Below are positions 5,495 to 58,653 of a stretch of 64,000 nt of DNA, piece after piece. Under the pieces are notes generated by a model, which saw only the letters and a program-made list of their open reading frames with translations, did no database searches and had not been told where the DNA came from. This stretch comes from Candidatus Poribacteria bacterium. Its GTDB lineage: Bacteria > Poribacteria > WGA-4E > PCPOR2b. Every line of letters begins with the position of its first letter. Position 1 is the first letter of the stretch. The stretch lies in assembly GCA_022822005.1 (NCBI GenBank), contig JAJECO010000012.1, positions 1-64,000 on the forward strand, given 5' to 3'. The translations under genes and the position numbers were made by a program.

Positions 5495-6154
5495 ATGATA
5501 ACCCATGCGATGGAAGATTATCTGAAGACAGTGTACTTGCTGCAAGAAGGTCAAGAAAAAGTCTCCACCTCTGCTATTGCCCAGCAAATGGAGGTGTCCG
5601 CCGCCTCCGTTACCGGTATGATCCGAAAGCTGGCAGCGATGGGGTTGCTAAATTATGCGTCCTATCAGGGCGTTGAATTGACAGAAGGCGGAAAGAAGAT
5701 CGCTCAAGAAATTATTCGCCATCACCGGTTGCTGGAACTTTATCTCGTTGAGATCATGGGATTTAGCTGGGACAAAGTTCACGACGAAGCGGATAAGCTG
5801 GAACATGTTATTTCCGAGGAGTTTGAGGAAAGGATGAGCGAGGCGTTGGGGCATCCAACAACTGACCCGCACGGACATGCCATCCCGGCAAAGGACGGTG
5901 CACTTCAAGAGGTTGCTTATGCAACATTGACGGAAGTTGATGCCGGCAGCTCTGCTACTGTCCAGCATGTCAGTGATAATGACCCCGAAATGCTGCGTTA
6001 CTTTGATCAGTTAGGTCTCCTGCCGGGCGCCGTTGTCCACGTTGTAGCGAAAGAACCGTTTAATGGGCCATTACGCTTGAAGGTTGACCAGACCGAACAC
6101 TTTGTCGGTCGCGAGGTTGCAGGCAATGTGTTTGTGAGTCCTCAGATAACCTGA
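5495..6154 (+). CDS. mntR: MntR/DtxR-family metal-dependent transcriptional repressor
   Basis: A 219-residue regulator with an N-terminal winged helix (about 1-65), a metal-binding dimerisation domain (about 66-140) and a C-terminal SH3-like/FeoA-like domain (about 145-215). Compared with Bacillus MntR (D8, E11, H77, E99, E102, H103), the sequence has D8, H77, D100, E103 and H104, but K11 where MntR has E11. The iron-type regulators have Met and Cys at two of these places, so this protein looks manganese/zinc-type. The N-terminus (MITHAMEDY) aligns directly with MntR, supporting the start. It heads the troABCD-like genes, the expected partners, and probably represses itself and them. Confidence 0.88.
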   Translation: MITHAMEDYLKTVYLLQEGQEKVSTSAIAQQMEVSAASVTGMIRKLAAMGLLNYASYQGVELTEGGKKIAQEIIRHHRLLELYLVEIMGFSWDKVHDEADKLEHVISEEFEERMSEALGHPTTDPHGHAIPAKDGALQEVAYATLTEVDAGSSATVQHVSDNDPEMLRYFDQLGLLPGAVVHVVAKEPFNGPLRLKVDQTEHFVGREVAGNVFVSPQIT

Positions 6155-6219
6155 TCTTCCTAACTCTAAGTACTGACAGAGATTTGTGTAATGCCAATTT
6201 AAGAAAGGATAAGGGGAGT

Positions 6220-7182
6220 ATGCGCACAATCTATGGGTTGTTAGCTTTTGTGATAATATTATTCGTTGCTTGTGACCGTCAATCGGATAAGGCTAACGAA
6301 AAGGCATCGAGTTCAACAGTATCCAGTGAGAAACAGATTCGTGTGGTAACAACAATCGGCATGATTACTGATATTATTCAGAATGTTGGGGGTAATCGTG
6401 TCAGCGCGACCGGATTGATGGGAGCGGGCATTGATCCACATTTGTACAAAGCGAGTGAAGGCGATGTTGCTCGGCTCGCAGGGGCCGACCTCATCTTTTA
6501 TAATGGCTTGCATCTTGAGGGGAAGATGGCAGGTGTGCTCGAAAGGATGCAGGACCAGGTAAAGACAGTTGCTGTAACGCATGACATTGATAGAGGGATA
6601 CTGTTGGCGCCGCCAGAGTTTGAAGGAGCATACGATCCACACGTTTGGTTTGATGTAACCCTCTGGATGAAAGCAGTTGAACGTGTGCGGGATACGCTGA
6701 TTGAGGTTGATCAGGATAGCGCGGAGTTGTACCGGACGAATACGGAAAGTTACTTGGCGCAGATGGAGGAGCTGCACGATTATGTGATGCAGCAAGCCGA
6801 GCGAGTGTCTCCCGATCAAAGGGTACTCGTCACTGCTCACGATGCCTTCAATTACTTCGGTCGTGCTTACGGGTTTGAGGTGCGCGGACTTCAGGGAATT
6901 AGTACGGCAGCTGAGGCTGGCACGGCTGATGTGCAGGCGTTAGTACAATTTATCGTCGAGCGCCGTATCCCCGCGATGTTTGTCGAGACCTCTGTGCCCC
7001 GCCGTAGCATCGAAGCGGTGCAAGCCGCCGTGGAGGCGAAAGGATTTTCTGTAGAGATTGGTGGACAGCTTTTCTCAGATGCGATGGGAGCGTCGGGAAC
7101 GCCAGAAGGCACGTACCTCGGAATGGTGCGTCATAACATTGATACAATCGTGGCATCGCTTCTGAAACCAGCGGCCAATTAG
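6220..7182 (+). CDS. troA: TroA/ZnuA-type metal-binding lipoprotein of an ABC importer
   Basis: A 320-residue cluster A-I solute-binding protein. I start at the ATG at 6220, preceded by AAGGGGAG, rather than the TTG at 6184. The N-terminus is a lipoprotein signal with Cys18 (FVAC). Metal ligands are H74 (DPHLY), H141 (DPHVW), H207 (TAHDAF) and D287 (LFSDAMG). Their spacing matches Treponema TroA (H68, H133, H199, D279), and the third ligand is His, as in TroA/ZnuA, rather than the Glu of PsaA/MntC. TroA takes zinc and manganese, so either metal is possible. It captures metal outside the inner membrane and delivers it to the permeases. It lies between the regulator and ATPase genes on the same strand. 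Confidence 0.9.
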   Translation: MRTIYGLLAFVIILFVACDRQSDKANEKASSSTVSSEKQIRVVTTIGMITDIIQNVGGNRVSATGLMGAGIDPHLYKASEGDVARLAGADLIFYNGLHLEGKMAGVLERMQDQVKTVAVTHDIDRGILLAPPEFEGAYDPHVWFDVTLWMKAVERVRDTLIEVDQDSAELYRTNTESYLAQMEELHDYVMQQAERVSPDQRVLVTAHDAFNYFGRAYGFEVRGLQGISTAAEAGTADVQALVQFIVERRIPAMFVETSVPRRSIEAVQAAVEAKGFSVEIGGQLFSDAMGASGTPEGTYLGMVRHNIDTIVASLLKPAAN

Positions 7183-7230
7183 ACAACCCCGGATAGGTCC
7201 ACGAGTGTCGGTATGCGAGAGGAGGTTGAC

Positions 7231-8091
7231 ATGACAGAATCCTTAAATAACCGATTGGCTATAGATGTGGCAGATTTGACCGTGGCGTATCGGGATCAGC
7301 CGGTACTGTGGGATGTAGACCTTAACGTGCCATCAGGGGTCCTCATGGCGATCGTCGGTCCCAACGGTGCTGGCAAAACGACGCTTATCAAAGCAATCTT
7401 GGGATTGGTATCACCGGCGGCCGGACGAGTCTTAATCCACGGACAGCCCTACGCCGATCAGCGACGGCTTGTGGGATATGTGCCGCAACGCGGGAGCGTT
7501 GATTGGGATTTCCCGACGAGTGTATTGGACGTGGTCATGATGGGATGTTATGGAACTTTGGGCTGGGGGCGTCGTCCGGGTCGTCGTGAACGTGCAAGGG
7601 GGATGAAAGCACTTGAAAATGTTGGGATGCTTGATTTTGCAGACCGGCAGATTAGCCAACTTTCCGGTGGACAGCAGCAGCGAGTCTTCCTTGCGCGGGC
7701 GTTGGTACAGGACGCCCAGGTGTACCTCATGGACGAACCGTTTCAAGGTGTTGATGCGACGACCGAACGGGCAATCGTTGCGCTCTTGCAAGACCTACGA
7801 GCTGCCGGTAAAACGGTGGTTGCTGTTCATCACGACTTGCAGACGGTGGCAGATTATTTCGATTCCGTAACGCTGCTAAACGTGCGTCGGATTGCCAGCG
7901 GTCCGGTGGAGGAAGTATTTACAGAACAGAATCTCCGACTCGCATACGGTGGTCGCGTCGCGTTCCTCAGTCGAGATGCTCAGGCTGATGGGAGCACAGG
8001 ACAATCTGATACAGCATCATCTGAACCGGTTGACGATGTTATAACTGTACAGGTTGACAAACCGATTGACACTTCACTCCGTCCATCTTAG
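7231..8091 (+). CDS. troB: Metal ABC transporter ATP-binding protein
   Basis: A 286-residue ABC ATPase with Walker A (GPNGAGKTT), Q-loop (VPQRGSVDW), signature (LSGGQQQRV), Walker B (VYLMDEP) and switch histidine (AVHHDL). A strong Shine-Dalgarno (GAGGAGG) fits the ATG at 7231; an upstream in-frame ATG at 7213 has none. The [12 protein letters not shown] segment is typical of zinc/manganese importer ATPases. The C-terminus carries an extra acidic, threonine/serine-rich tail of about 35 residues that the core fold does not need. It energises the import of the metal delivered by the TroA-like protein, through the permeases encoded 3 kb downstream. Confidence 0.92.
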
Positions 8092-8191: not shown

Positions 8192-10894
8192 ATGACACGC
8201 AAATTTTTGGTTGTTACTGCTGTACTTTTAATTATCTTTTCTCTACAGGCTCAAGCCAAATCTGGTGATGAAGCACATCAAAGGCTGCAACTAAACACGG
8301 CGGGAGAAGTCAGCTTTGAATCAACATCTACTGATGTCGGAAATTTGGTGGTCATCAACGGTAACGAGCACATTGTCCAACCGAAGAACACCTTCGATTT
8401 AGCGGGGCAAAATCTACGTTTTACGCCCAATGACGTAGGTGGATACGATGTATCTATGCCAGAGGATGTTGAGTTTGTCCAAGCCTTCGGTGATGTATTG
8501 CAGTTGAGTGATGACGACAGTAAGAAGGTGGAAATCGAATTCGACTTCCCATTTTTTGGTGAGGAATATACGGAACTTTTTGTTAATTCAGATGGGAACT
8601 TGACATTCGGCAAAGGGGATGCTGCCTCGTGGGCGCGGGATTTACAGCGATTTTTGGCAGAATCACCCCGCATCGGTGTGCTGTACACCGACCTGAATCC
8701 GTTTGATCCATTCCCCGACCCATTCGGCGGCGGAGAAACTCCTACCGTTGAAGTAAAGCAATCTGCCAAGCAGGTGACCGTTACTTGGTTCAACGTTGAG
8801 GCGTTCAGCGATGATTTCTTCGGTAGCGCGGCATCACTAACAATGCAGGCTGTTCTGTATGATACAGGCGTTATTGACATCGTTTTTGAGGAGTCTCAGG
8901 TAAGAACAGGCATTGTTGGGGTATCCCCCGGTGGACTCGACGATGCTTTTCAAGTAACTTTAGTGGACTACTCGGACAATTTGCCGCTTGAGGGAACAAC
9001 GGGTGCTATCGCAGAGGTCTTCGTAGATCTGCCAACAGTCAACCTACAGAACGTTGCGCGTGAGTTTTACCGATCGCATAACGACGATTTTGATAGTTTA
9101 ATTCTCTTCACTAATTTTGAATCAAACCTAGACTTCGTAGGGGTTTTAGCCTTTGCTATTAACGTTCGGAATGATGTTTTAGGTATCGGCAACCCAAACA
9201 GATCAGAAATCTTTCCGCAATTTGATCATACCGCCGAGTACGGTAGCCAAGGGAATCTAAAAAGTTTTCTCACCATGAAAAACTTGAAGGTATGGGAAGA
9301 TGATCCTTTGGAGAATACGTTCGGTCCGGCGACATCTACACTAAGTGTACTTGCACACGAATTTGGGCATACGTGGGCCGCTTTTATTGATCCCCTTGTA
9401 TTGTTAACTCGGGACCGGGCGCATTGGAATTTTTTCCTACATACGAATGGATCGCTTCTGGGCGGCAATGACATCCAAGATAACGGGGACGGTTCGTTTA
9501 TTACCTTAGCTCCTAAAAATATTTATAGCCCGCTCGATCTATATCTAATGGGTCTACTCAAGCCGGAAGATGTTCCGCCGACTTTCTTGGTGACCGAACC
9601 CCATGATTTGGATCTTCCACCGCCCTATGATCAACAGACTATAACTGCAGATCAGCTACAGGGCACGTATTCCTTGGGGGACGTCGGTTTCCGAGGTGAC
9701 AAGCAAGAGGTAAGGATCGAAGATATTATTGCGGTAAACGGGATGCGAATCCCCGACGCTGAATCCTCTCAGAAGGACTTTCAGACTGCGTTTATCCTGC
9801 TTGCACAGGGTGAAGAGGGACCCACTCCCGACGAAATCGAAAGGGTAGAGGCTGTTAGACTTTACTGGCCCCCCTTCTTTCATCGAGCGGCAAACAACTT
9901 AGCAACGGTGACCAGTACCCTTGATGGCTCACCCGAAGATGTTAGGTTGCCTACTGAGGACGAACCCGATGAAGAACGCGTTTATACTTATACGGTGCAT
10001 CTGGATAACGGGTTAAATATCATTTCGCCGCCGCTACGTCCAGAGACGCCGCTGACAGCGCGCAGCTTTATGGAGATGGTCGGATCGACGGTTATTATCG
10101 CTGCTGATGATGGGGAATTCGTATCTCATACTGTCACGACACCCGGGGATGGATATTCGATTGAAGGCGGACGGGGGTATATTGTCAATACGCCAGAGGG
10201 TGGCGCGATCACATTCACAGGAGCCCCTTGGGACGATTCCGATTCGACAGAGGCTGCCGAATCGGCGAGTGCGCCAGCCGCTAACGGAGCGCTTTGGGCA
10301 TTCGTCGTTGATGGGATTCTTGCCGAAGAAGGGTTCCAAGAATCTTACCAAATTACCATTGAGAATCTCAGAATAGGCAATCGATTGATGGAAGGATTAG
10401 CCGAAGCAGGTGGCAGATTTACTTTAGGCTATGCTGATTTGAATCGAACCCCGGTTGTCCAAGTCGGCGACACATTGCGTTTGACGCTTACCAATATCGC
10501 TTCAGATCAACCTATTGGCAAAACAGATTATGTCATTACACCTGAGGATATTCAGAAAGCGTATACAACGCTTCATCTAACCTTCGATAGCCTCGCTCCG
10601 ATGCATACCCAGCTGCTTCAGAATTACCCAAATCCATTCAATCCCGAGACGTGGATTCCATATCAGCTTGCCTCTGATACGGATGTGGCAGTTACTATTT
10701 ATGACACCGAAAGTGTGTTAGTACGTCAACTGGATCTGGGATATCAGCAGGCGGGATATTACACAGACAGGGCGCGAGCAGCGTATTGGGATGGGCGTAA
10801 CCACTTAGGTGAATCAGTGGGGAGCGGCATCTATTTCTACCAGCTGCGCGCAGGTGACTATGCCACCATGCGAAAGATGGTAATTCTCAAGTAG
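8192..10894 (+). CDS. Large secreted HExxH metalloprotease-like protein with nidogen-like domain and sorting tail
   Basis: A 900-residue exported protein with a signal peptide (MTRKFLVVTAVLLIIFSLQAQA) and a strong TAGGAGG ribosome site. Residues about 100-270 resemble a nidogen-like (NIDO) extracellular domain. A zincin-type motif HEFGH is at 389-393, with YSPLDLYLMGL about 60 residues later, a pairing I recall from uncharacterised secreted bacterial proteins. A further beta-rich region (about 600-690, LDNGLNIISPPLRPETP) leads to a C-terminal FlgD-like/type-A sorting tail (about 805-900, NYPNPFNPETW ... MVILK). It is probably a surface or secreted peptidase; the third zinc ligand is not identified. 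It is oddly placed between the ATPase and permease genes of the metal importer. Confidence 0.8.
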   Translation: MTRKFLVVTAVLLIIFSLQAQAKSGDEAHQRLQLNTAGEVSFESTSTDVGNLVVINGNEHIVQPKNTFDLAGQNLRFTPNDVGGYDVSMPEDVEFVQAFGDVLQLSDDDSKKVEIEFDFPFFGEEYTELFVNSDGNLTFGKGDAASWARDLQRFLAESPRIGVLYTDLNPFDPFPDPFGGGETPTVEVKQSAKQVTVTWFNVEAFSDDFFGSAASLTMQAVLYDTGVIDIVFEESQVRTGIVGVSPGGLDDAFQVTLVDYSDNLPLEGTTGAIAEVFVDLPTVNLQNVAREFYRSHNDDFDSLILFTNFESNLDFVGVLAFAINVRNDVLGIGNPNRSEIFPQFDHTAEYGSQGNLKSFLTMKNLKVWEDDPLENTFGPATSTLSVLAHEFGHTWAAFIDPLVLLTRDRAHWNFFLHTNGSLLGGNDIQDNGDGSFITLAPKNIYSPLDLYLMGLLKPEDVPPTFLVTEPHDLDLPPPYDQQTITADQLQGTYSLGDVGFRGDKQEVRIEDIIAVNGMRIPDAESSQKDFQTAFILLAQGEEGPTPDEIERVEAVRLYWPPFFHRAANNLATVTSTLDGSPEDVRLPTEDEPDEERVYTYTVHLDNGLNIISPPLRPETPLTARSFMEMVGSTVIIAADDGEFVSHTVTTPGDGYSIEGGRGYIVNTPEGGAITFTGAPWDDSDSTEAAESASAPAANGALWAFVVDGILAEEGFQESYQITIENLRIGNRLMEGLAEAGGRFTLGYADLNRTPVVQVGDTLRLTLTNIASDQPIGKTDYVITPEDIQKAYTTLHLTFDSLAPMHTQLLQNYPNPFNPETWIPYQLASDTDVAVTIYDTESVLVRQLDLGYQQAGYYTDRARAAYWDGRNHLGESVGSGIYFYQLRAGDYATMRKMVILK

Positions 10895-11230: not shown

Positions 11231-12352
11231 ATGGAATTGCTGCACAATCTCTTCTTTGATTATACCCTGCGTACGGTCGCACAAGGTTCTGCCACACTCG
11301 GAATCGTCAGCGGTGCTCTGGGAACATACGCGGTCTTGCGCAAGCAGAGCCTGTTAGGAGACGCAATTTCCCATGCAGCGTGGCCTGGTATCGCGTTAGC
11401 GTTTCTGCTTACCGGCAGCAAAGCCCCGCTTGTGTTGGTGTTGGGTGCTGCTGCTGCTGGCTGGATAGGTACGCTTTTCGTAATGGGCATTGTTAATACG
11501 ACCCGCCTCAAAGACGATAGCGCATTGGGCTTGGTACTTTCCGTGTTCTTTGGTTTCGGTCTTGTTCTATTGACAGCATTCATTCAGAAGATGCCCAATG
11601 CCAATCAGGCTGGACTCGACAAATTTCTCTTTGGTCAGGCGGCGGCGCTGGTGGAAAGAGATGTCAAGACGATGGGTTCGTTGGGGATTATCGCGCTGCT
11701 GATAATGATGGTCTTCTGGAAGGATTTCAAACTTCTCAGTTTTGACCCTGACTTCGGCGCGAGTCTCGGTTTTCGCATGCGGTGGCTCGACGTTTTGCTG
11801 ACGACGCTTATTGTAATTGCCATTGTACTGGGATTGCAAACTGTCGGCGTGGTGCTGATGAGTGCGATGGTTGTTGCACCTGCGGCAGCGGCGCGTCAGT
11901 GGACAGATCGTTTAGGTGTAATGGTCCTCCTGTCTGCCCTGTTTGGTGCGGTTGCCGGTGTAAGTGGTGCACTCATTAGCAGCAGCACAGCACGGATTCC
12001 TACAGGTCCCACCATCGTGCTCTGTATCAGTGCGATCGTTTTAATATCGATGACTCTGGCGCCAAATCGGGGGCTGATTTGGAATTGGATACGCCATCAA
12101 CGTAACCGTCGGCAACTACGGGTCGAGATGGTGCTGGATGATCTCTACGCACTGACGTTGCAGCATGAGGATTTAGAACACCGACATTCTGTAAGGGTCT
12201 TAAATGCGATGAGTGCTGGACGGGGCGGCGCTAAGCGGAGCCTTGAAGAGTTGGAAGCTCGCAGTTGGGCACATCGGGTTGGCACAGAATGGGCACTGAC
12301 TCCGAAGGGATTGGCGGAGGCGAAACGGTTGGCGGAAATGCGGGGTAATTAG
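11231..12352 (+). CDS. troC: Metal ABC transporter permease with C-terminal winged-helix-like tail
   Basis: A 373-residue ABC-3 family (ZnuB/TroC/MntB) inner-membrane permease with about eight to nine hydrophobic segments. The coupling region after the fifth segment contains FDPDFGASLGF, a family hallmark. Unlike the usual about 280-residue permease it continues into a soluble cytoplasmic tail of about 85 residues that ends LEELEARSWAHRVGTEWALTPKGLAEAKRL. This looks like the recognition-helix/wing end of a DtxR-type winged helix. The stop directly abuts the next permease ATG, indicating translational coupling. The pair forms the transmembrane channel of the zinc/manganese importer whose other subunits lie upstream. 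Confidence 0.9.
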   Translation: MELLHNLFFDYTLRTVAQGSATLGIVSGALGTYAVLRKQSLLGDAISHAAWPGIALAFLLTGSKAPLVLVLGAAAAGWIGTLFVMGIVNTTRLKDDSALGLVLSVFFGFGLVLLTAFIQKMPNANQAGLDKFLFGQAAALVERDVKTMGSLGIIALLIMMVFWKDFKLLSFDPDFGASLGFRMRWLDVLLTTLIVIAIVLGLQTVGVVLMSAMVVAPAAAARQWTDRLGVMVLLSALFGAVAGVSGALISSSTARIPTGPTIVLCISAIVLISMTLAPNRGLIWNWIRHQRNRRQLRVEMVLDDLYALTLQHEDLEHRHSVRVLNAMSAGRGGAKRSLEELEARSWAHRVGTEWALTPKGLAEAKRLAEMRGN

Positions 12353-13504
12353 ATGAACTTCTCACCACAGGTAGAGATTCAAATTATCGCTGCGGTTGTT
12401 GCTGTTGCGTGTGCCTTGCCGGGAGTATTTCTGGTGCTTCGCCGTATGGCATTGATGAGCGATGCTATCAGCCATTCAATCCTCCTTGGTATCGTTTTAG
12501 CGTTTTTTGTTGTTGAAGATCTTGCATCGCCATTCCTTATTATAGCGGCGGCAATCACCGGTGTGATTACGGTGGCGCTCGTAGAACTCTTGCACGGTAC
12601 TGGTCTCGTGCGTGAGGATGCTGCCATCGGGATTGTGTTTCCCGCACTGTTCAGTGGGGGTGTGATTCTCATCTCTCGCTATGCGGGGAGTGTTCATCTG
12701 GATACCGATGCTGTGCTGTTGGGAGAGTTGGCGTTTGCTCCGTTTGAGCGGCTCTCCGTTTTCGGATACGCCCTCCCTAAATCACTCTGGGTGATGGGCG
12801 GGATCCTGTTGGTCAACCTTGTTTTTATTATGCTGTTTTATAAGGAACTGAAGCTGGCAACATTTGACGCCGGACTCGCCGCCGCGCTCGGATTTTCACC
12901 CGTCCTCGTCCACTACGGCTTGATGACATTGGTTTCGGTGACAGCGGTTGGCGCGTTTGACGCGGTAGGATCCATCTTGGTTGTTGCGTTGATGATTGCG
13001 CCGCCGGCGACCGCCTATCTGCTAACGGATCGACTGTCCTATCTGCTTGGGCTGAGTGCACTGAATGGTGTTGCAAGTGCTATTACTGGTTATTGGTTGG
13101 CGCGTTGGTTAGATGCGTCTATTGCCGGGGCTATGGCAACGATGAGCGGTGTCTTCTTCCTTTTAGCCTTTCTTCTCGCACCAACCCGCGGTATCATCGC
13201 TATCGCTCGTCGCCGTGTGCGTCAGCGATGGCAATTCGCTCAGACCATGCTTACCATCCACCTGTTGAATCATGAAGGTTCTCCCGAAGCCCAGCAGGAG
13301 CGTCGTATTGAGCATCTGGATGAGCATCTGCGTTGGGCCCCTTCTTTCGCGGAGCGGGTTGTGAGATATGCGGAGAGACAGGGTGCCATCCAGTCCGATG
13401 CGGGTGATTTGACCTTGACCGAACATGGTCGACAGATTGCTCGCGATGGTTTGAGTATGTCTGAGGCAAGCCCTGATCAGAGATCGGAATTCGCGGTTTC
13501 GTAG
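12353..13504 (+). CDS. troD: Second metal ABC transporter permease with winged-helix-like tail
   Basis: A 383-residue ABC-3 permease, paralogous to the preceding gene, with the family marker FDAGLAAALGF and about eight to nine membrane segments. It also carries a soluble C-terminal extension (about 285-383) with a winged-helix-like ending (RYAERQGAIQSDAGDLTLTEHGRQIARD). Two different permeases point to a TroC-TroD heterodimer as in Treponema. The tails in both could sense metal or dock the repressor, but that is speculation. It begins immediately after the stop of the first permease and is the last recognisable gene of the metal-uptake locus. Confidence 0.9.
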   Translation: MNFSPQVEIQIIAAVVAVACALPGVFLVLRRMALMSDAISHSILLGIVLAFFVVEDLASPFLIIAAAITGVITVALVELLHGTGLVREDAAIGIVFPALFSGGVILISRYAGSVHLDTDAVLLGELAFAPFERLSVFGYALPKSLWVMGGILLVNLVFIMLFYKELKLATFDAGLAAALGFSPVLVHYGLMTLVSVTAVGAFDAVGSILVVALMIAPPATAYLLTDRLSYLLGLSALNGVASAITGYWLARWLDASIAGAMATMSGVFFLLAFLLAPTRGIIAIARRRVRQRWQFAQTMLTIHLLNHEGSPEAQQERRIEHLDEHLRWAPSFAERVVRYAERQGAIQSDAGDLTLTEHGRQIARDGLSMSEASPDQRSEFAVS

Positions 13505-57477: not shown

Positions 57478-57568
57478 TGGCGGAGAGAGTGGGATTCGAA
57501 CCCACGGTACAGTTGCCTGCACACATGATTTCCAGTCATGCCAGTTCAACCAACTCCTGCATCTCTCC
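57478..57568 (-). tRNA. tRNA-Ser (GGA)
   Basis: A 91-base gene with 7-bp acceptor stem GGAGAGA/TCTCTCC, anticodon loop CTGGAAA (anticodon GGA, reading UCC/UCU), long variable arm typical of class II serine tRNAs, T-loop TTCGAAT and an encoded CCA end. Confidence 0.95.
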
Positions 57569-57672
57569 GAAAATCTTGAGCAGCACAAATTGTTCGATAT
57601 CATTATATAGCGAAAAACCTATCTTGCGCTGTCCCAAAGTTTGCTCCAATCATTGACGATTGGAAAAATCGA

Positions 57673-57745
57673 TGGAGCAGACGGGATTTGAACCCGTGGC
57701 CTCATCCGTGCGAGGGATGCGCTCTCCCAACTGAGCCACTGCCCC
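57673..57745 (-). tRNA. tRNA-Ala (CGC)
   Basis: A 73-base class I tRNA. Acceptor GGGGCAG pairs with CTGCTCC, including a G3-U70 pair that marks alanine. Anticodon loop CTCGCAC gives CGC (GCG codons). Discriminator A; CCA not encoded. Confidence 0.94.
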
Positions 57746-57751
57746 AAAAGG

Positions 57752-57840
57752 CGGAGAGAGTGGGATTCGAACCCACGGTGACGATAACGCCACAACAGTT
57801 TTCGAGACTGTCCTGTTCAACCGGGCTCCAGCATCTCTCC
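57752..57840 (-). tRNA. tRNA-Ser (CGA)
   Basis: An 89-base serine tRNA with acceptor GGAGAGA/TCTCTCC, anticodon loop CTCGAAA (anticodon CGA, reading UCG), a long variable arm and T-loop TTCGAAT. The last CCA is incomplete in the DNA (CCT). Confidence 0.94.
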
Positions 57841-57846
57841 AAAAAT

Positions 57847-58296
57847 TTAGGTTCGCCGATCTCGAAAAAAAGACTTGAGCAGCTGACTGCTCTCCTCTGC
57901 CAGAACCCCCTGCGTGATGTCCACTTGGTGATTGAGTCGCTCGTCTTGTAATAAGTTGAACAGCGTCCCCGCAGCGCCACCCTTTGGGTCTGAAGCGGCA
58001 TAAATGACCCGCGGGATACGAGCCAAGACGATAGCGCCACAACACATCGGACACGGTTCCAAAGTCACATAGAGGGTCGTATCCGTTAAACGCCAATCAC
58101 CAACAGATGAAGCAGCCAATCGAATCGCAATCAGTTCTGCGTGAGCAGTTGGATCCTTTGTCCCCTCCCGTTCGTTATGGGCGCGAGCGAGGGGGATTCC
58201 GTCCTTGATGATAATTGCGCCGACGGGAACTTCACCGAGTGCAGCGCCCTGACGTGCAACTTCAAGGGCTTCACGCATCCAGAACTGATCCGACAT
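57847..58296 (-). CDS. tadA: tRNA adenosine deaminase
   Basis: A 149-residue TadA. The zinc/proton-shuttle site is H52-A-E54 (TAHAEL), with C82 and C85 in PCPMC. TadA converts A34 to inosine in tRNA-Arg(ACG). That very tRNA gene is 83 bases upstream on the same strand. The start at 58296 (MSDQFWMREAL) is preferred over an ATG 39 bases earlier. Confidence 0.93.
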   Translation of the reverse strand: MSDQFWMREALEVARQGAALGEVPVGAIIIKDGIPLARAHNEREGTKDPTAHAELIAIRLAASSVGDWRLTDTTLYVTLEPCPMCCGAIVLARIPRVIYAASDPKGGAAGTLFNLLQDERLNHQVDITQGVLAEESSQLLKSFFRDRRT

Positions 58297-58378
58297 TTCA
58301 AAAGATCGAAACGGGGCGATTGCCCCAATTTGCACTTTCAGCCCCGCAGCCGAAGCCGCGGGACCAAAAACGCATATA

Positions 58379-58452
58379 AGCGCCCGAGAGGATTCGAACC
58401 CCCGACCTTCTGATCCGTAGTCAGATGCTCTGATCCACTGAGCTACAGGCGC
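58379..58452 (-). tRNA. tRNA-Arg (ACG)
   Basis: A 74-base tRNA. Acceptor GCGCCTG/CGGGCGC, D-stem GCTC/GAGC, anticodon loop CTACGGA (anticodon ACG, the TadA substrate), T-loop TTCGAAT. CCA is not encoded and position 73 would be U, which is unusual for arginine tRNAs. Confidence 0.92.
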
Positions 58453-58461
58453 GTAATAAGC

Positions 58462-58551
58462 TGGCGGAGGGAGTGGGATTCGAACCCACGATGGCTGTTA
58501 AGCCATAACTGCTTAGCAGGCAGTCCAGTTCAACCACTCCTGCACCCCTCC
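58462..58551 (-). tRNA. tRNA-Ser (GCT)
   Basis: A 90-base serine tRNA. Acceptor GGAGGGG/TCCCTCC, anticodon loop CTGCTAA (anticodon GCU, reading AGC/AGU), long variable arm and encoded CCA. Confidence 0.95.
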
Positions 58552-58565
58552 ACATTTTCGAATAA

Positions 58566-58653
58566 TGGCGGTGGGAGTAGGATTCGAACCCACGGTGACT
58601 TGCGCCACAACGGTTTTCAAGACCGCCGCTTTCGACCTCTCAGCCATCCCACC
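58566..58653 (-). tRNA. tRNA-Ser (TGA)
   Basis: An 88-base serine tRNA. Acceptor GGTGGGA/TCCCACC, anticodon loop CTTGAAA (anticodon UGA, reading UCA and perhaps other UCN), long variable arm and encoded CCA. It is the first gene downstream of the strong promoter at 58668-58696. Confidence 0.95.

Follow-up and report, generated by a model that had tools for sequence, protein, structure and literature searches.

Histidine-bearing winged-helix tails on both permeases of a poribacterial ABC-3 metal importer

Introduction

ABC-3 permeases with a DtxR-type tail are an already known kind of protein. YtgCR of Chlamydia trachomatis is an ABC-3 permease fused to a DtxR-type repressor, and a review reports such fusions from 11 phyla (PMC5599777). 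A second relevant system is the importer TroABCD with its regulator TroR, for which Table 1 of PMC2628430 gives treponemal TroC/TroD pairs of 298/367 and 304/366 residues.

The locus described here stems from a Candidatus Poribacteria bacterium and lies within a stretch of 64,000 nucleotides (contig JAJECO010000012.1 of assembly GCA_022822005.1, positions 1 to 64,000), which was analysed as a whole and is referred to as the window. Like TroABCD–TroR, it comprises a TroA-like binding protein, an ATPase, two ABC-3 permeases and a DtxR-type regulator. Like YtgCR, its ABC-3 permeases end in a DtxR-type winged helix, and complete fusions are also found among its relatives; an earlier note on this stretch had mentioned that such tails are known in some relatives, and the YtgCR-type permease–repressor fusions (PMC5599777) are a case in point. 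To our knowledge, the means by which metal importers of this family are switched off once they have been made are poorly understood, control being usually ascribed to transcription.

Results

The importer locus

The importer genes form an operon-like run that reads, in order, MntR-type repressor, TroA/ZnuA-type binding protein, ATPase, secreted protein, permease 1 and permease 2. Except for the secreted protein, described further below, these are:

5495–6154, plus strand: MntR/DtxR-type repressor, 219 residues (PF01325 3e-20, PF02742 5e-30, FeoA 1e-19)
6184–7182, plus strand: metal-binding lipoprotein of TroA/ZnuA type, listed with a TTG start (PF01297 1.6e-76)
7213–8091, plus strand: importer ABC ATPase, 292 residues (PF00005 1e-31)
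11231–12352, plus strand: permease 1, 373 residues, an ABC-3 core at about residues 1–281 plus a tail (PF00950 2.1e-67, residues 12–276)
12353–13504, plus strand: permease 2, 383 residues, an ABC-3 core at about residues 1–281 plus a tail (PF00950 4.6e-43, residues 11–275)

The PF00950 matches run along the membrane core and score 227.8 bits for permease 1 and 148 bits for permease 2, against a curated cut-off of 20.1; the start codon of permease 2 directly follows the stop codon of permease 1. The stand-alone MntR-type repressor is intact, is encoded by the first gene of the operon and constitutes the single PF01325 match in the genome. TroA is the closest solved relative of the binding protein (E 8e-88). 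A manganese-type glutamate ligand once considered for this protein was dropped, as the alignment to TroA, read at what we take to be the metal-ligand positions, has a histidine there; manganese, zinc and iron are the candidate metals. For the ATPase, the top NCBIfam models are manganese importer ATPases, with scores under their cut-offs.

Several side observations concern the surroundings of these genes. The ATPase has a variable C-terminal end of 20–45 residues (265–292 residues in total) in the window and in other genomes with a permease-1 tail, and measures 245–250 residues in most genomes without one; this longer end tracks the family tree and may have no meaning of its own. The secreted protein (900 residues, 8192–10894), whose C-terminal domain is weakly FlgD-like, separates the ATPase from permease 1 in the window and in L047 and L048, and is absent from that place in the other fetched Poribacteria loci. 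Elsewhere in the window, six tRNA genes cluster at 57478–58653 on the minus strand, four for serine (gga, cga, gct, tga), one for arginine and one for alanine.

Both tails adopt a predicted winged-helix fold

Past the ABC-3 core, permease 1 continues for ~91 residues and permease 2 for ~101, in line with the ~85–100 extra residues that the earlier note had pointed out on both proteins. The folded parts are:

12086–12349, plus strand: winged-helix tail of permease 1, residues 286–373 (AlphaFold2 pLDDT 90.2; top PDB match MntR, 2f5f)
13202–13501, plus strand: winged-helix tail of permease 2, residues 284–383 (AlphaFold2 pLDDT 74.1 on residues 284–370; DtxR, 3glx, rmsd 1.4)

AlphaFold2 modelling of the permease-1 tail (88 residues, 53 aligned sequences) yielded a helix, a short helix, a recognition-type helix, a two-stranded wing and a final helix at a mean pLDDT of 90.2. 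The permease-2 model (87 residues, 25 sequences) has its elements in the same order at a pLDDT of 74.1; the last 13 residues of this permease are an added end common to L047 and L048. Both tails are thus winged helices as modelled, which bears out the suspected resemblance of their ends to the recognition helix and wing of a DtxR-type domain.

A comparison with solved structures placed Bacillus subtilis MntR (2f5f) first for the permease-1 tail (E 6e-3, TM 0.64), with AF1382, MarR-type and other winged helices scoring about equally, and returned SSo2273, DtxR (3glx, rmsd 1.4 over 71 columns), MarR-type proteins and MntR as leaders for the permease-2 tail. MntR, DtxR and IdeR are among the top structural matches; MarR, AF1382 and O-methyltransferase caps fit the models about as well as MntR. 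Because these other winged-helix families match about equally, DtxR ancestry is not provable by structure alone.

The tails start basic, with a mean net charge over the first 22 residues of +3.2 for permease 1 and +3.7 for permease 2. As the C-terminus comes after the last membrane segment and this basic stretch, the tail should be at the cytosolic face, provided that the positive-inside rule holds.

Fused relatives link the tails to DtxR/MntR repressors

Neither Pfam nor NCBIfam provides a direct name for the tails. In the Pfam scan, no PF01325 match exceeded the cut-off in the window tails, the top sub-threshold match of the permease-1 tail being HVO_A0261_N, and PF01325 was likewise absent at E ≤0.01 from the 21 and 29 tails scanned. 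With a fused permease as query, a locus scan over genome contigs recovered 80 loci from Verrucomicrobiota, Bacteroidota, Gemmatimonadota, Latescibacterota and others, most of which encode a permease 1 followed by a DtxR winged helix and a metal/dimerisation domain. PF02742 matched all four fused tails scanned (E 6e-13 to 8e-25) and is clear in L038, L039 and L040; under what we take to be the DtxR ligand numbering, the ligand motif is kept in most fused permease-1 tails.

Profile comparison by HHalign related the window-type tails to these fusions, with a probability of 96.6 (E 5e-10) for permease 1 and 93.8 for permease 2, each against the fused tails of the same permease. The fused tails in turn matched the winged helices of stand-alone MntR proteins at 97.7 and 96.6. 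Direct comparison of the window-type tails with MntR gave a weak probability of 29 for permease 1 and a fair one of 84 for permease 2, with raw scores of 24.0 and 32.8 against maxima of 21.8 and 13.9 among 20 column-shuffled controls. When searched against solved structures, the permease-2 profile ranked MntR first in a weak direct match (E 0.008), and the permease-1 profile ranked an IdeR-type repressor first (E 0.078). Descent of the tails from the DtxR/MntR type is therefore well supported by structure, by profiles that pass through the fused relatives and by the weak direct match of permease 2.

Fusions also exist within Poribacteria. In family f7 (L038:775–2121, L039:7186–9959, L040:7335–9979), permease 2 has a tail made of a DtxR winged helix and a metal domain; the same holds for permease 1 of L039 and L040, the winged helix ahead of the metal domain being shrunken in permease 1 of L040. 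We considered these fusions as direct parents of the window tails and rejected them, as the trees place the window permease 1 with Thermoanaerobaculia-type sequences. Permease 1 of Brevibacillus and Melghirimyces (L171, L173, L178) has a fused tail of full length whose metal ligands are gone, which is another decay route of the fusion.

The tails lack the hallmarks of a DNA-binding repressor

The metal/dimerisation domain PF02742 has no match in the window tails, which stop where it would start; this rules out that they are complete repressors. Past helix 1, the net charge in the window is +2 for permease 1 and −6 for permease 2, and its mean is −0.1 over 50 permease-1 tails and −2.7 over 107 permease-2 tails, as against +4.7 over 59 stand-alone MntR proteins. 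With both the metal/dimerisation domain and the DNA-facing positive charge gone, a metal-switched, two-headed DNA binder of the DtxR kind is unlikely, and the contact to DNA envisaged in the earlier note finds no support.

The same properties weigh on the idea that the tails bind MntR or its operator as a membrane-tethered anti- or co-repressor, or are cleaved into a soluble regulator like YtgR. Their winged-helix ancestry would suit such a role, as would the MntR encoded in the same operon, the sole one found in the genome; moreover, the fused repressor of Chlamydia is described as being cleaved and as repressing its own operon (PMC5599777). Yet the tails have no dimerisation domain, their DNA-facing charge is lost (+2 and −6 versus the MntR mean of +4.7) and the direct profile match of permease 1 to MntR is weak, so that we regard a tethered or cleaved regulator as improbable.

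Histidine clusters are conserved where the metal domain is missing

Each tail contains a group of conserved residues that are candidate metal ligands:

12164–12187, plus strand: histidine cluster of permease 1, H312, H317 and H319, conserved in winged-helix-only tails
13259–13336, plus strand: conserved cluster of permease 2, H303, H307, E308, E316, H325 and W328, conserved in tails of this type

The sample behind the following counts was extended beyond Poribacteria from L156, the nearest relative outside the phylum, a member of the Thermoanaerobaculia, of which 148 genomes were searched and 25 loci sampled. Thirteen of the 25 (L221–L233) have winged-helix-only tails on both permeases, with histidines in common with the window's phylum. 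The permease-2 profile then added loci from Bacteroidota, to which the Rufibacter locus L159 belongs, and another two from the phylum of L156. Permeases cut by contig ends were left out of the counts, as was the tail-less permease 2 of L239 from the group of ten described below; tails containing X were dropped from the alignment lists, and L118, L133 and L156 from the histidine table, their genomes being already represented by L040, L038 and L235.

The 50 winged-helix-only permease-1 tails, which come from three phyla, all have H312 and H319, and 41 of them have H317. Among 107 permease-2 tails of the window type, H303, H307 and W328 occur in all 107, E316 and H325 in 105 each, and E308 in 96. 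Within each tail, the cluster histidines are among the best-conserved positions, and W354 of permease 1 and W328 of permease 2 equal them in invariance. Helix 1 carries candidate ligands at its end, where H303 and H307 of permease 2 are spaced by four residues, and others lie in helix 2 or immediately ahead of it; by eye, H312 of permease 1 aligns with H307 of permease 2. The permease-2 tails of L246–L273 were found with a histidine-bearing profile and are thereby biased toward histidines. Their own sequence played no part in the choice of the 27 permease-1 tails of these loci, which were fetched as neighbours of permease-2 matches; H312 and H319 are present in every one of them.

Three Bacillota loci stand outside these counts and follow the pattern only partly. 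Two of them keep the permease-2 cluster and the third has Y for H307 together with a frame break; their single permease-1 tail has H312 and is devoid of H317 and H319. In the Bacillota locus L280 (4376 onward), the permease-2 tail is broken by a frame change and permease 1 of that genome is tail-less.

In tails with a second DtxR domain the pattern is different. Among 73 such permease-1 tails, called by an RLWE-like motif and including three in which the metal ligands themselves are lost (L168, L171, L173), histidine is found at position 312 in two, at 317 in one and at 319 in none, and none of 11 such permease-2 tails has H303, H307 or H325. Winged-helix-only permease-2 tails that reside beside a metal-domain permease 1 have H303 in 10/10 cases, and H307 and H325 in 0/10. 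The full cluster was accordingly seen only where permease 1 is without a metal domain. For the metal sensing suggested in the earlier note, this means that the DtxR way finds no support, PF02742 being absent, while the idea gains a different basis in histidines that are absent from these places in fused DtxR tails.

Invariant histidines and tryptophans might instead pack or form hydrogen bonds rather than ligate metal, the tails then serving as assembly or coupling domains that pack on the ATPases or on the partner tail. H303 may indeed be structural, because it is present in all ten permease-2 tails that are without the remaining cluster, and W354 and W328 are as invariant as the histidines; besides, the tail of permease 2 is kept and that of permease 1 often lost. 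On the other hand, the invariant set is rich in histidine and glutamate and confined to cases without a DtxR metal domain, and winged-helix-only permease-2 tails without the cluster do exist (the same ten, beside a metal-domain permease 1). A purely structural role is, in our estimation, unlikely, if the most serious of the alternatives.

The permease-1 tail is often lost in Poribacteria, and both tails are under purifying selection

A profile search detected the permease-1 tail in 8/84 Poribacteria genomes, identical to the eight whose fetched permease 1 has the winged-helix-only tail. In the fetched Poribacteria loci, permease 1 (n = 68) is winged-helix-only in 8 cases, carries a DtxR metal domain in 2 and has a short end in 58; the short copies stop 6–52 residues past the core, and one of them, L084, runs into unknown letters. 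All 67 complete copies of permease 2 in these loci have a tail of at least 88 residues. Given its loss in 58 of 68 copies, the permease-1 tail is not essential to transport in Poribacteria, and was probably lost twice within the phylum. A dispensable tail had been named in the earlier note as evidence against its proposal; this applies to permease 1 alone and not to permease 2.

The distribution also bears on whether the tails could be a built-in acceptor or chaperone that takes over the metal ion leaving the channel and passes it on, with no part in regulation. The evidence from the conserved histidines would speak for this role too, and a tail that comes after both the last membrane segment and a run of basic charge would lie at the cytosolic face under the positive-inside rule. 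Loss of the permease-1 tail is tolerated, though, and there is no known partner to receive the metal, making such a hand-over a quite improbable function.

Outside Poribacteria, the permease-1 profile had no match among 64 genomes from the phylum to which G086 belongs, the 8/84 genomes found in Poribacteria serving as control. The permease-2 profile matched at least 7/396, 29/296, 1/288 and 3/299 genomes in four other phyla, counts that are lower bounds because only part of the candidates was scored in many genomes. Its weakest matches are probably due to chance, and no permease was found in L276 and L277, fetched for two weak ones. Closer to the window, the relatives G015, G018, G020 and G022 (same genus or family) gave no ABC-3 permease match, and G015 and G022 keep a clear MntR-type repressor.

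Nei–Gojobori dN/dS of the permease-1 tail ranges from 0.015 to 0.10 (4 pairs) versus a core median of 0.038, and the permease-2 tail has a median of 0.069 versus 0.063 for the core (306 non-independent pairs). As purifying selection on the tails is about as strong as on the core, they are not debris, and chance as their origin is ruled out by the low ratios. That the tails are functionless remnants of an old permease–repressor fusion would accord with the disappearance of the permease-1 tail from most of the order, but is highly unlikely in view of a dN/dS as low as that of the core and of residues invariant over three phyla.

In the tree, all 48 winged-helix-only permease-1 sequences used, together with 10 tail-less Poribacteria sequences, fall on one side of a branch with an SH-aLRT of 99, and this group adjoins the metal-domain sequences of its class (SH-aLRT 98). 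L046 was left out of both trees and L233 out of the second, from which near copies were also removed (128 rows used). The topology points, in essence, to one origin of the histidine-for-metal-domain swap or to its spread by transfer, rather than to many independent swaps. As the tree shows what is essentially a single swap, the correlation between histidines and a missing metal domain is not independently repeated. In a genome of another Poribacteria class (L033:7410–9652), permease 1 groups inside the window's order in the trees, a placement that suggests transfer.

Discussion

The earlier observation of winged-helix-like tails on both permeases is confirmed, and its interpretation partly supported. 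The explanation that we tentatively favour, as plausible though short of probable, is that a repressor winged helix now serves the importer as a cytosolic domain responsive to metal and no longer acts as a DNA binder. It builds on what was observed of the tails: their position, predicted fold, ancestry via intermediates, absence of the metal domain, purifying selection and invariant histidines. From this we infer that the histidines would bind metal, that binding would alter transport, and the direction of that effect.

The tails would have entered the importer as a permease–repressor fusion and would then have been rebuilt, losing the metal-binding/dimerisation half as well as the DNA-facing charge, while conserved histidines and glutamates may have arisen around the region where helix 1 ends and helix 2 begins. 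When internal metal is plentiful, it could bind the cluster below the channel and slow the transport cycle, leaving gene expression to the separate MntR. A more far-reaching proposal holds that the paired tails are a new sensor, in which cytosolic metal bound via a new histidine/glutamate site gates transport, and that this sensor took the place of the older fusion's metal domain a single time and today occurs in several phyla; we deem this possible but rather unlikely.

Metal sensing on the importer itself becomes directly testable with a compact, conserved domain that has specific candidate ligands, occurs in several phyla and can be separated from the repressor. Such a domain also offers a case of a transcription-factor domain reused in a transporter for which intermediates are at hand, from the complete fusion via the winged helix with histidines to no tail at all.

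The comparison with described systems places the tails between several of them. With MntR/DtxR repressors they share the winged-helix fold and ancestry; unlike these, they are without PF02742 and without the positive DNA-facing half, and bear histidines at new places. The MetNI and ModBC importers have cytosolic regulatory domains that halt transport when substrate is plentiful; those domains are of other folds and reside on the ATPase. If the explanation favoured here is right, the window importer would work similarly, with the domain on the permeases instead.

Unlike TroABCD–TroR, the window locus has its regulator gene first, and permease 1 is tailed as well. The TroC and TroD sizes given in Table 1 of PMC2628430 match permeases 1 and 2 in those of the sister families analysed here whose permease 1 has lost its tail, and because the listed TroD length fits such a tail, a studied importer may already carry one unnoticed. 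Descriptions of winged-helix-only tails or of this histidine cluster were not found among the titles and abstract openings of open-licence PubMed Central articles. Unlike in YtgCR, the tails of the window comprise the winged helix only, without PF02742, are present on both permeases, have a histidine cluster of their own and stand beside an intact, separate MntR in the operon. What appears to be new is this combination and, within it, the histidines conserved in both tails where permease 1 is without the metal domain.
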